NCBI GenBank assembly: GCA_945861665.1
Contig: CAMAVS010000003.1
Location: forward strand, 337,362-382,155
From: Chitinophaga pinensis
GTDB lineage: Bacteria > Bacteroidota > Bacteroidia > UBA4408
Length of the DNA: 44,794 nt
Reading direction: 5' to 3'
The position numbers and the translations under genes were made by a program. The notes under the pieces were generated by a model. The model saw nothing but the letters and a program-made list of their open reading frames with translations. It had not been told where the DNA came from and searched no databases. Of the stretch, positions 5,928 to 28,833 are shown piece after piece; position 1 is the stretch's first letter, and every line of letters starts with the position of its first letter.

Positions 5928-6925
5928 TTAAAAATAAAATAACTGAATTGCTTGATATTGAATTCCCAGTAATTATGGCTCCTATGTTTTTGGTAAGCAA
6001 TGGAGAAATGTTGAAGTCTGCATTAAAATCAGGTATTGCAGGAGTATTTCCTTCATTGAATTATAGAAAAGAAGACGAACTTAAAAAAATGTTAAAAGAA
6101 TTAAATGAGTATAAAAAATACCATCCAAAAGGTACTTATGGGGTAAATTTAATTGTTCAAAAAACAAACCCACTCTATTCAATTCATTTGAAAATTTGTG
6201 TTGAGGCCAAAGTTCCATTTTATATAACTTCTTTGGGTAATCCGAAAGAAGTTATAGAGCAAGCTCATGGCTATGGTGCGAAAGTATTTTGTGATGTAAC
6301 CAATTTAGAACATGCTGAAAAATGTGCCTCCCTTGGTTGCGATGGATTTATTGCAGTAGGTCAAGGCGCTGGTGGGCACGCAGGTTCATATCCATTGCAA
6401 GTTTTGGTTCCTTCATTGAATAAAAAATTCCCTGCTATCCCGATTATTGCTGCGGGTGGAATTGCCGATGGAGCGGGAATTTTATCAATTATCTCCTTAG
6501 GAGCAGAAGCAGTTTCAATGGGGACTCGTTTTATTGCCTCAACTGAAGCAATCGTAAGCAAGGAGTATAAAAATGCTATTGTAAATTCAGGAATGCATGA
6601 TATTGTATTAACGACTAGAATTTCAGGAACACCTTGTACCATTATTAATAACCCCTATGCAAAAACAATTGGATATACTCAGAATTGGATAGAACGAATG
6701 CTTTCAAGCAGCACTATTTTCAAAAAATATTTAAAAATGTTAGTGCAATTAAAAGGGATGCACCAGCTTGAAAAAAGTATCAAACCGGGAAGTTATGAAA
6801 CACTATGGTGTGCCGGGCAAAGTGTTGAATTAATACACGATATTCTTTCTTGCGAAGAAATTATTACTCGATTGAAGGCAGAATTTACACTTGCATATAT
6901 CGAGCTACAGCAACGTCTGTCGTAA
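5921..6925 (+). CDS. Nitronate monooxygenase-like FMN TIM-barrel protein
   Basis: A 334-residue protein from the ATG at 5921; an in-frame TTG at 5915 would add two residues but has no advantage. The fold is the 2-nitropropane dioxygenase/nitronate monooxygenase FMN barrel: an N-terminal strand with FPVIMAPMFLVSNGE, a central GQGAGGHAGS loop carrying the conserved histidine, and the phosphate-binding segment AAGGIADGAG followed by GAEAVSMGTRF. Such enzymes oxidise alkyl nitronates, but related barrels also act as enoyl reductases or NADH:quinone reductases, so the substrate is open. It diverges from the lipid operon and ends 1 bp before the stop of the convergent exonuclease gene. A paralogue lies at 42559-43500. 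Confidence 0.85.
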   Translation: MTIKNKITELLDIEFPVIMAPMFLVSNGEMLKSALKSGIAGVFPSLNYRKEDELKKMLKELNEYKKYHPKGTYGVNLIVQKTNPLYSIHLKICVEAKVPFYITSLGNPKEVIEQAHGYGAKVFCDVTNLEHAEKCASLGCDGFIAVGQGAGGHAGSYPLQVLVPSLNKKFPAIPIIAAGGIADGAGILSIISLGAEAVSMGTRFIASTEAIVSKEYKNAIVNSGMHDIVLTTRISGTPCTIINNPYAKTIGYTQNWIERMLSSSTIFKKYLKMLVQLKGMHQLEKSIKPGSYETLWCAGQSVELIHDILSCEEIITRLKAEFTLAYIELQQRLS

Positions 6926-27777: not shown

Positions 27778-27851
27778 GGTTTTGTAGCTCAATTGAATAG
27801 AGCGTCTCACTACGGATGAGAAGGTTCGGGGTTTGAATCCCTGCAAGACCA
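27778..27851 (+). tRNA. tRNA-Arg (anticodon ACG)
   Basis: A complete cloverleaf can be folded by hand. The acceptor stem is GGTTTTG (27778-27784) with CAAGACC (27844-27850), including one G-U pair. The D stem is GCTC/GAGC. The anticodon stem is TCTCA/TGAGA with loop CTACGGA, placing anticodon ACG at 27812-27814. The T stem is CGGGG/CCCTG with loop TTTGAAT. The discriminator is A27851. CCA is not encoded. ACG, read as ICG after deamination, decodes CGU, CGC and CGA. A strong terminator follows. Confidence 0.93.
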
Positions 27852-27860
27852 CAGATGATC

Positions 27861-27896
27861 AAAAAAGTTCTGCCAATTGGCAGAACTTTTTTTTTT
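27861..27896 (+). terminator. Rho-independent terminator after tRNA-Arg
   Basis: A 14-bp perfect stem (AAAAAAGTTCTGCC with GGCAGAACTTTTTT) around the tetraloop AATT is followed by an unbroken T run to 27896. It begins 9 bp after the tRNA. Confidence 0.92.
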
Positions 27897-27935
27897 CAGG
27901 TTTTCGAGTAAAGCTTGCTTTTACTCGAAAACCTG
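27897..27935. repeat. Perfect 16-bp inverted repeat (hairpin)
   Basis: CAGGTTTTCGAGTAAA (27897-27912) pairs perfectly with TTTACTCGAAAACCTG (27920-27935) around a 7-nt loop. It directly follows the T run of the tRNA terminator. No T tract follows on either strand, so it is not an ordinary terminator. Confidence 0.85.
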
Positions 27936-27946
27936 AAAATAAAAAT

Positions 27947-27970
27947 AACCGAGCGAAGCGAGGTTCTTTT
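27947..27970 (+). repeat. Small hairpin with GCGAAGC core and T tract
   Basis: AACC (27947-27950) and GGTT (27962-27965) enclose GAGCGAAGCGA, whose GCGAAGC core is a known very stable mini-hairpin; the flanking G/A bases face each other. A T run follows and runs into the first copy of the 44-bp repeat. It may act as a weak terminator. Confidence 0.5.
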
Positions 27971-28080
27971 TTGATCCACTTCTTTGTTAGCAGGGATCAA
28001 CGGAGTTAATTCCTGTGTTATAAAAATAGTTAAACGTTTTTTGATCCACTTCTTTGTTAGTAAGAATCAACGGAGTTAAT
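27967..28080. repeat. 44-bp direct repeat pair at a rearrangement junction
   Basis: Copy 1 is 27967-28010 and copy 2 is 28037-28080. Both begin TTTTTTGATCCACTTCTTTG and end ATCAACGGAGTTAAT, differing at three positions, with 26 bp between them. Copy 1 also contains a perfect 7-bp inverted repeat, TTGATCC (27971-27977) and GGATCAA (27994-28000), degraded by one base in copy 2. Copy 2 passes straight into the coding frame of the truncated cargo gene. No transposase or integrase is nearby. Confidence 0.8.
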
Positions 28081-28833
28081 CTTGGTGGCCCAACTGCTGT
28101 ATTTGGTTTGCCAACTTTTATCGAAAGTTTTTTTGATAACGCGGCTTCATTGTTAGGGAACGACACAACTGTTTGTAGCAATAGTTATACCTTGGATGCA
28201 GGTGTCGGTTGGCCGAGTTATTTGTGGAGTAACAACGAAACAACACAAAGTATTCAGGCAACACAAACAGGGGTTTATTGGGTTGAAGTAACCAATGCGA
28301 GTGGTTGTGAGAAGCGCGATTCTATTTTTGTTACCTTAAATGCACCCGAATTTAAATTACCTGCCGATACCTCATTTTGTGGTACTGCTTTATTACTAAA
28401 AGCAAATTCTCCGTCAGATTCATATTTGTGGAATACAGGTGATACAACAGAAAGTATTTCAATAACGAAATCGGGTAGCTATTCTGTTACTTTAACCAAA
28501 GGCGTGTGTGTGGTTTCTGATACTATAAAGATTGAAGTACTTACAAAAGCGCCACAATTTGCTCCACCCAATATTTTTACACCCAATGGCGATAATACAA
28601 ACGATACTTATAACATAGGAGTGGCAAACTTTAATGAGTATACCTTTAAAATTTTTAATCGTTGGGGACAATTGGTTTTTGAAACCACAGATACAAAAGT
28701 AAGTTGGGATGGCAAATCAAAAGGGAAAGATGTTCCTCCAGGTTCTTATTATTGGATACTTTCCGGTAATACTGTTTGCGGAGTTGATAAAACTGTAATA
28801 GAAGAAAAGGGTTTTGTAACCTTGGTTCGTTAA
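28045..28833 (+). pseudogene. 5'-truncated type IX secretion cargo gene (gliding-motility C-terminal domain)
   Basis: The frame is open from just after the TGA at 28042-28044 to the TAA at 28831-28833, about 262 codons. The first possible start is a TTG at 28054. There is no signal peptide, and the first codons come from the 44-bp repeat. From about 28090 it reads as the interior of a large secreted protein: FGLPTFIESFF, then two Ig/PKD-like repeats (LGNDTTVCSNSYTLDAG with SYLWSNNETTQSI; LPADTSFCGTALLLKANSPS with SYLWNTGDTTESI). It ends in a complete type B sorting domain: IFTPNGDNTNDTYNI, FKIFNRWGQLVFETTD, SWDGKSKGKDVPPGSYYW. It is most likely the 3' piece of a longer gene cut at the repeat, and probably silent. 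Confidence 0.75.

Follow-up and report, generated by a model that had tools for sequence, protein, structure and literature searches.

Tandem hairpin units behind tRNA genes in Chitinophaga pinensis and other Bacteroidota, and their probable relation to small GIY-YIG genes

The 44-bp repeat that lies behind the tRNA-Arg(ACG) gene of Chitinophaga pinensis is part of a small non-coding element that ends in a hairpin (here named H4). This element is probably one form of a mini-element of the tRNA end that also has a GIY-YIG form, and its distal unit was probably joined to a type IX cargo gene. The repeat was analyzed within a window, i.e. a continuous stretch of 44,794 nucleotides of contig CAMAVS010000003.1. 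Throughout the class, units of the H4 family follow tRNA and tmRNA genes on the strand of these genes, often in tandem, and they carry inverted as well as direct, altered copies of the 3' end and the trailer of the host tRNA. About half of the small stand-alone GIY-YIG genes examined are also linked to tRNA genes; these share the strand of the tRNA, the majority lie downstream of it, and behind most of the downstream ones the tRNA 3' end is duplicated. Searches of the open-access literature returned no description of repeats downstream of tRNA genes, or of GIY-YIG genes at bacterial tRNA genes, in Bacteroidota.

The features of the window locus are presented in Table 1. The tRNA, its terminator, two further hairpins, the two 44-bp copies and the adjoining reading frame were all recovered where the original prediction had placed them. 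The perfect inverted repeat of H1 spans 27861-27892, and the arms of the B-H2-B' palindrome, a hairpin type that is also present at other loci, occupy positions 27887-27912 and 27920-27945. The two copies of the repeat are identical at 41 of 44 positions and are separated by 26 nt; its 20-nt core has an expectation of 0.00 occurrences in shuffled sequences, and its 3' part is the hairpin H4 (GGATCARCGNAGYTAATCC). The stretch adjacent to the tRNA folds much more strongly than its shuffles on both strands (z about -7.8). The second unit (~28020-28083) is degenerate, and its right edge passes straight into the cargo remnant. A plain duplication with a period of 70 bp was considered and rejected, because the flanks of the 44 bp fail to match across the full period. 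The genes on either side of the element are housekeeping genes.

Table 1. The tRNA-Arg(ACG) locus and the adjoining cargo remnant, in positions of the window.
Feature	Position	Strand	Basis
tRNA-Arg(ACG), intact host gene	27778-27852	+	ARAGORN and Rfam tRNA
T-arm/acceptor letters of tRNA-Arg(ACG), ATCCCTGC	27837-27844	+	
A, trailer GATCAAAAAAG	27857-27867	+	sequence
H1, tRNA terminator hairpin with T-run	27861-27896	+	16-nt arms, 100% complementary; fold
B-H2-B', palindrome with centre AAAGCTTGCTTT	27887-27945	.	26-nt arms, 96% complementary
H3, third hairpin AACCGAGCGAAGCGAGGTT	27947-27965	+	sequence, fold
A', CTTTTTTGATC, reverse complement of trailer A	27966-27976	+	sequence; permutation over 25 loci
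44-bp repeat copy 1 (linker with the larger part of A' and of H4)	27967-28010	+	
GCAGGGAT, reverse complement of tRNA 27837-27844; H4 left arm	27990-27997	+	sequence; permutation, 25 loci
H4, T-arm-like hairpin GGGATCAACGGAGTTAATTCC	27993-28013	+	family scan
44-bp repeat copy 2, degenerate distal unit	28037-28080	+	93% identity
H4 of unit 2, AAGAATCAACGGAGTTAATCTT, running into the cargo frame	28062-28083	+	sequence
Type IX cargo remnant: end of propeller-like domain, repeats, CHU_C sorting domain	28072-28833	+	Pfam
CHU_C sorting domain	about 28567-28821	+	Pfam E=5.6e-21, residues 172-256

It had been supposed that the repeat does not copy the tRNA. This fails for inverted copies, since GCAGGGAT is complementary to letters of the tRNA itself and CTTTTTTGATC to its trailer. 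The trace of a direct copy of the tRNA end is short and degenerate in the window (AATTCCTG compared with AATCCCTG). When the genome was searched for the 44-bp repeat with up to three mismatches, only two occurrences were obtained, both at the window locus; a looser search detected kin behind one other gene, tRNA-Arg(TCG), so that H4 is carried by 2 of about 30 tRNAs read in this genome, tRNA-Arg(ACG) and tRNA-Arg(TCG). The large palindrome has no other copy in the genome, for which reason a dispersed MITE was rejected. A known RNA family was likewise discarded: in the window and the array loci only tRNA passes the Rfam gathering score, and the matches to Phe_leader and to microRNAs, which are due to hairpins only, stay below the cut-offs. 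A small frame that directly follows tRNA-Leu(CAA) in the C. pinensis genome (L265) presumably encodes a four-helix-bundle (23S rRNA intervening sequence) protein.

In an initial scan of 100 relatives, H4 was found behind tRNAs and frequently in tandem. The core of the hairpin can be written as GGAT-C-ARC-GNA-GYT-A-ATCC. When 395 genomes of the class were scanned for exact matches to a pattern that permitted all four stem combinations, 22 of them (5.6%) proved to carry H4, with 50 copies at 30 loci in total; the reversed pattern was absent from all 395. The variable stem positions were paired in every copy (24 AAC/GTT, 26 AGC/GCT, none mixed), and the core with its altered T-loop is identical in 20 genera and at different tRNAs. 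At 24 of the 30 loci a tRNA (Arg, Ser, Pro, Gln, His or Lys) or a tmRNA is located upstream on the same strand, usually at a distance of 70-450 nt, which bears out the proposal that the repeat belongs to an element tied to the tRNA 3' end. Several of the remaining six loci show partial tRNAs or copied tRNA ends, and near-matches to H4 were seen at one tRNA-Cys locus. Among the tRNA-Arg(ACG) genes of other genomes, at least 22 are followed by an ordinary terminator only, and the element is absent there except for one match at chance level. In the relatives that were compared, leuDH and lptG are on different contigs, and a clean empty site was therefore not readable. That this architecture is found again and again, at 30 loci in 22 genomes, makes an assembly error unlikely.

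The usual order of the elements is tRNA - A - H1 - T-run B - H2 - B' - H3 - A' - linker - H4 - (tRNA-end copy), and the units measure 70-530 bp, with as many as seven in a tandem array. A' corresponds to the reverse-complemented trailer of its own host: the mean local score was 22.6 for own pairs and 12.9 for pairs with different tRNAs, a difference reached by 0 of 20,000 permutations over 25 loci. The same test gave 0 of 20,000 both for the letters after H4, which copy the acceptor end of the host tRNA, and for the letters before H4, which are complementary to it (25 loci in each case); the loci used in these permutations are not fully independent, as tRNA species are shared among them. The direct copy of the tRNA 3' end in tandem units is clear at L277, L279, L281 and L282, where it extends over ~11 letters or more. 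The CG of the T-loop is absent from H4. It is important to mention that, because H4 derives from a T-arm, proximity to tRNAs alone is no proof of a mobile element. A complete H4 unit beside a tRNA-Ser-like 3' end copy was also noticed on a viral contig (L305, IMG/VR UViG 3300042896_000682, ~6330-6655), an arrangement that would be expected at the right edge of a phage after integration at a tRNA with a pre-existing array.

In one array (G168), a small GIY-YIG frame lies between H4 units and is followed by a copy of a tRNA-Ser end; therefore, 23 genomes were searched with PF01541, and the surroundings of 57 loci with small stand-alone GIY-YIG genes were read. Thirty of the 57 are located within 400 nt of a tRNA or tmRNA, as against none within the outer flank of the same loci (209,608 bp), which served as the background. 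All 31 tRNA-linked cases lie on the strand of the tRNA, 22 of them downstream. Behind about 15 of these 22 genes the tRNA 3' end is duplicated (0 of 20,000 permutations), with a start-to-start distance of mostly 338-532 bp, and a clear duplicate is absent at the other seven. In 10 of 16 cases the duplicated segment directly abuts the end of a perfect hairpin of at least 6 bp; among background positions the figure is 140 of 13,312. The small proteins match the Pfam GIY-YIG family and, weakly, group I intron endonucleases. The insertion points of the GIY-YIG units vary between the T-loop, the T-stem and the anticodon region, so that one T-loop-specific enzyme would be insufficient for all of them.

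The two families meet at five H4 loci that have a GIY-YIG gene nearby, one of them within the array; most H4 loci are without such a gene, and none is present in the window. Both small GIY-YIG genes of the C. pinensis genome are tRNA-linked (L328, G000:C2:292223-292432; L355, G000:C2:100339-100554). One of them is situated 73 nt before tRNA-Arg(TCG), the tRNA that also bears an H4 array, and the other 37 nt behind tRNA-Asn, with an exact duplicate of 32 nt of the tRNA end. After this tRNA-Asn duplicate, the start of an apparent second, tandem GIY-YIG frame can be observed. Eight small GIY-YIG frames with a period of about 364 bp are arranged in tandem at another locus (L324, G168:C34:6991-9748), where no tRNA was recognised within the 8.7 kb examined. 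Directly 3' of a tRNA-Arg(ACG) of a different genome (L046, G029:C9), the first 60 letters resemble the start of a GIY-YIG gene; according to this reading, the orthologous tRNA elsewhere seems to host the coding form.

The reading frame at the end of the locus comprises 259 amino acids (28054-28833). It has a TTG start within copy 2 of the repeat and neither an ATG nor a signal peptide, and an in-frame TGA inside that copy (28042-28044) closes it upstream. The frame had been taken for the middle of a large cargo protein. Since it terminates in the CHU_C domain, it represents instead the C-terminus of a type IX cargo protein; around GLPTF, it is similar to the last part of a propeller-like domain found in distant cargo genes. 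A search of the contigs of the genome with the protein returned distant cargo genes only and no full-length or near-identical copy, the best paralogue being 41% identical. This paralogue (L004, G000:C10:23414-24115) is a frame of only 279 codons and itself a headless type IX cargo C-terminus, so that such remnants are not unique to the window in this genome. No relative with a conserved short gene at the window locus was found. We read the cargo frame as a beheaded C-terminal remnant and as a bystander to the 44-bp repeat. The suspected junction of repeat and beheaded gene does lie inside the repeat and resembles a rearrangement scar: a deletion or rearrangement, probably through end joining, appears to have fused the distal unit, within H4, to a type IX cargo gene and thereby to have beheaded that gene. 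The joint cannot be placed to the base, because the cargo codons (NGVNL) and H4 both contain AACGGAGTTAATC. A second gene broken at the H4 hairpin, with a joint similar to that of the window, was observed at L289 (G298:C80, about 1225-1520), where a gene whose beginning looks like a signal peptide is fused by this start to the right half of an H4.

From these data we infer that H4 units and GIY-YIG units are two forms of one tRNA-end mini-element. Its units may be mobile, and by analogy with the phage endonuclease SegB we propose a model of cutting and repair for the GIY-YIG elements. The GIY-YIG enzyme would cut tRNA genes, the likely target being the conserved T-loop or its vicinity, and repair would insert or amplify a unit carrying the tRNA 3' end. 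The tRNA would thereby stay whole, and a disabled copy of its end would be displaced downstream. The H4 arrays would represent the non-coding form, and the units of the window would be non-coding derivatives.

As the main competing explanation, in-place tandem duplication combined with fold-back copying (template switching) could have acted at the palindrome-rich tRNA terminator with no dedicated nuclease, as may hold for the tyrT repeats of E. coli, the GIY-YIG genes being a separate matter. Such copying would give the inverted copies of host trailer and tRNA end, and the E. coli tyrT repeats show the same AATCC start point and an inverted copy (GGGGAAGGAT) with no nuclease gene in the region examined. 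However, independent duplications would not yield one H4 core with an altered T-loop in 20 genera and at different tRNAs, and the array with a GIY-YIG gene between H4 units also counts against it; we regard this explanation as unlikely. We give still less weight to a selected RNA or transcription structure, i.e. a two-way terminator, an insulator or a processed tail RNA, in which the tRNA-end copies would be decoys or processing signals. The very stable folds on both strands, the pairing of the A/A' arms and the H4 stem that is kept while the letters vary, and the T-rich stretch after H3 on the minus strand, like that of an intrinsic terminator, agree with such a function, but the patchy spread (22 of 395 genomes, and 2 of about 30 tRNAs in the C. 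pinensis genome), the ordinary terminators behind at least 22 other tRNA-Arg(ACG) genes and the decay of distal units do not.

Integration into the 3' ends of tRNA and tmRNA genes is classic, and it is marked by partial copies of the tRNA (PMC9897764); the viral contig with a unit beside a tRNA-Ser-like end copy could be cited to the same effect. Nevertheless, att-site scars or remnants of integrase-borne islands or phages are very improbable here, given units of 70-530 bp, up to seven tandem copies, inverted trailer copies and the lack of an integrase gene, and for the viral contig, integration of a phage next to a pre-existing array at a tRNA suffices as an explanation. The original suggestion of a repeat family that reshuffles surface-protein cassettes has hardly any credibility left. 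The frame does begin inside copy 2 and continue into a cargo C-terminus, but the repeat is absent from other cargo genes, its nearest kin lies behind another tRNA-Arg, and the genome holds no near-identical cargo donor.

Returning to the mini-element, a broader claim can be put forward only tentatively: Bacteroidota may possess an undescribed class of minimal mobile elements (about 70-530 bp) behind tRNA and tmRNA genes, with an autonomous form that encodes only a small GIY-YIG endonuclease and a non-autonomous form that consists of a hairpin unit with an uncuttable T-arm mimic. The host tRNA end would be carried with each insertion, so that the tRNA survives and tandem arrays grow. tRNA genes are classic landing sites of islands and phages, which use integrases; in the present case, much smaller units with at most a GIY-YIG nuclease seem to have colonised the tRNA 3' end. 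If this is true, the SegB story of phages would extend to bacterial chromosomes, the puzzling tyrT repeats of E. coli would gain a wider setting, partial tRNA copies in genome annotations would be explained, and there would be a system in which nuclease-driven amplification at tRNA genes can be tested.

Among known systems, SegB of phage T6 is a GIY-YIG homing endonuclease that cleaves within tRNA genes and is required for the tandem amplification of a tRNA segment, with RAWTSGAAC as its preferred target (PMC13096335). Our comparison shows that the T-loop sequence GTTCGAATC, which is the usual one, gives this motif when reverse-complemented; as a point against the model, the T-loop of tRNA-Arg(ACG) in the window (GTTTGAATC) deviates from the SegB-type motif by one base. 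Like other free-standing GIY-YIG homing endonucleases of T4-like phages, SegB is encoded by a small gene beside tRNA genes (PMC2988022), as in the present case; the GIY-YIG genes of Bacteroidota, which are putative endonuclease genes, differ in being chromosomal and class-wide and in having a duplicated tRNA 3' end with a hairpin at its junction. The tyrT/tyrV repeats (rttR, rtT RNA), compared in E. coli K-12 since E. coli SK1144 is without them, resemble several loci of the H4 family in their tandem arrangement behind a tRNA, with the 3' end of that tRNA copied in each unit both directly (from AATCC) and in inverted form. They differ in their length (about 178 bp), their restriction to one tRNA, an exact copied end and the absence of the H4 core, and the region examined has no GIY-YIG gene, unlike some H4 loci; in the Rfam searches of window and array loci, rtT (RF00391) gave no match.

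Islands that integrate into tRNA or tmRNA genes by means of tyrosine recombinases also leave the tRNA whole and a partial copy displaced downstream, but the units described here are hundreds of times smaller, have no recombinase, contain inverted trailer copies and form tandem arrays; at the window locus there are only tandem noncoding units, and not an integrase gene with att repeats at both ends. REP/RAYT palindromes are short intergenic hairpins as well, whereas the present element is confined in its genome to two tRNA loci, is not dispersed and is built from the host tRNA. Finally, GIY-YIG elements of fungal mitochondria, e.g. in atp6 of Allomyces, insert at the 3' end of a gene and restore it with a duplicated end; their hosts are mitochondrial protein genes, and those of the elements described here are bacterial tRNA genes.
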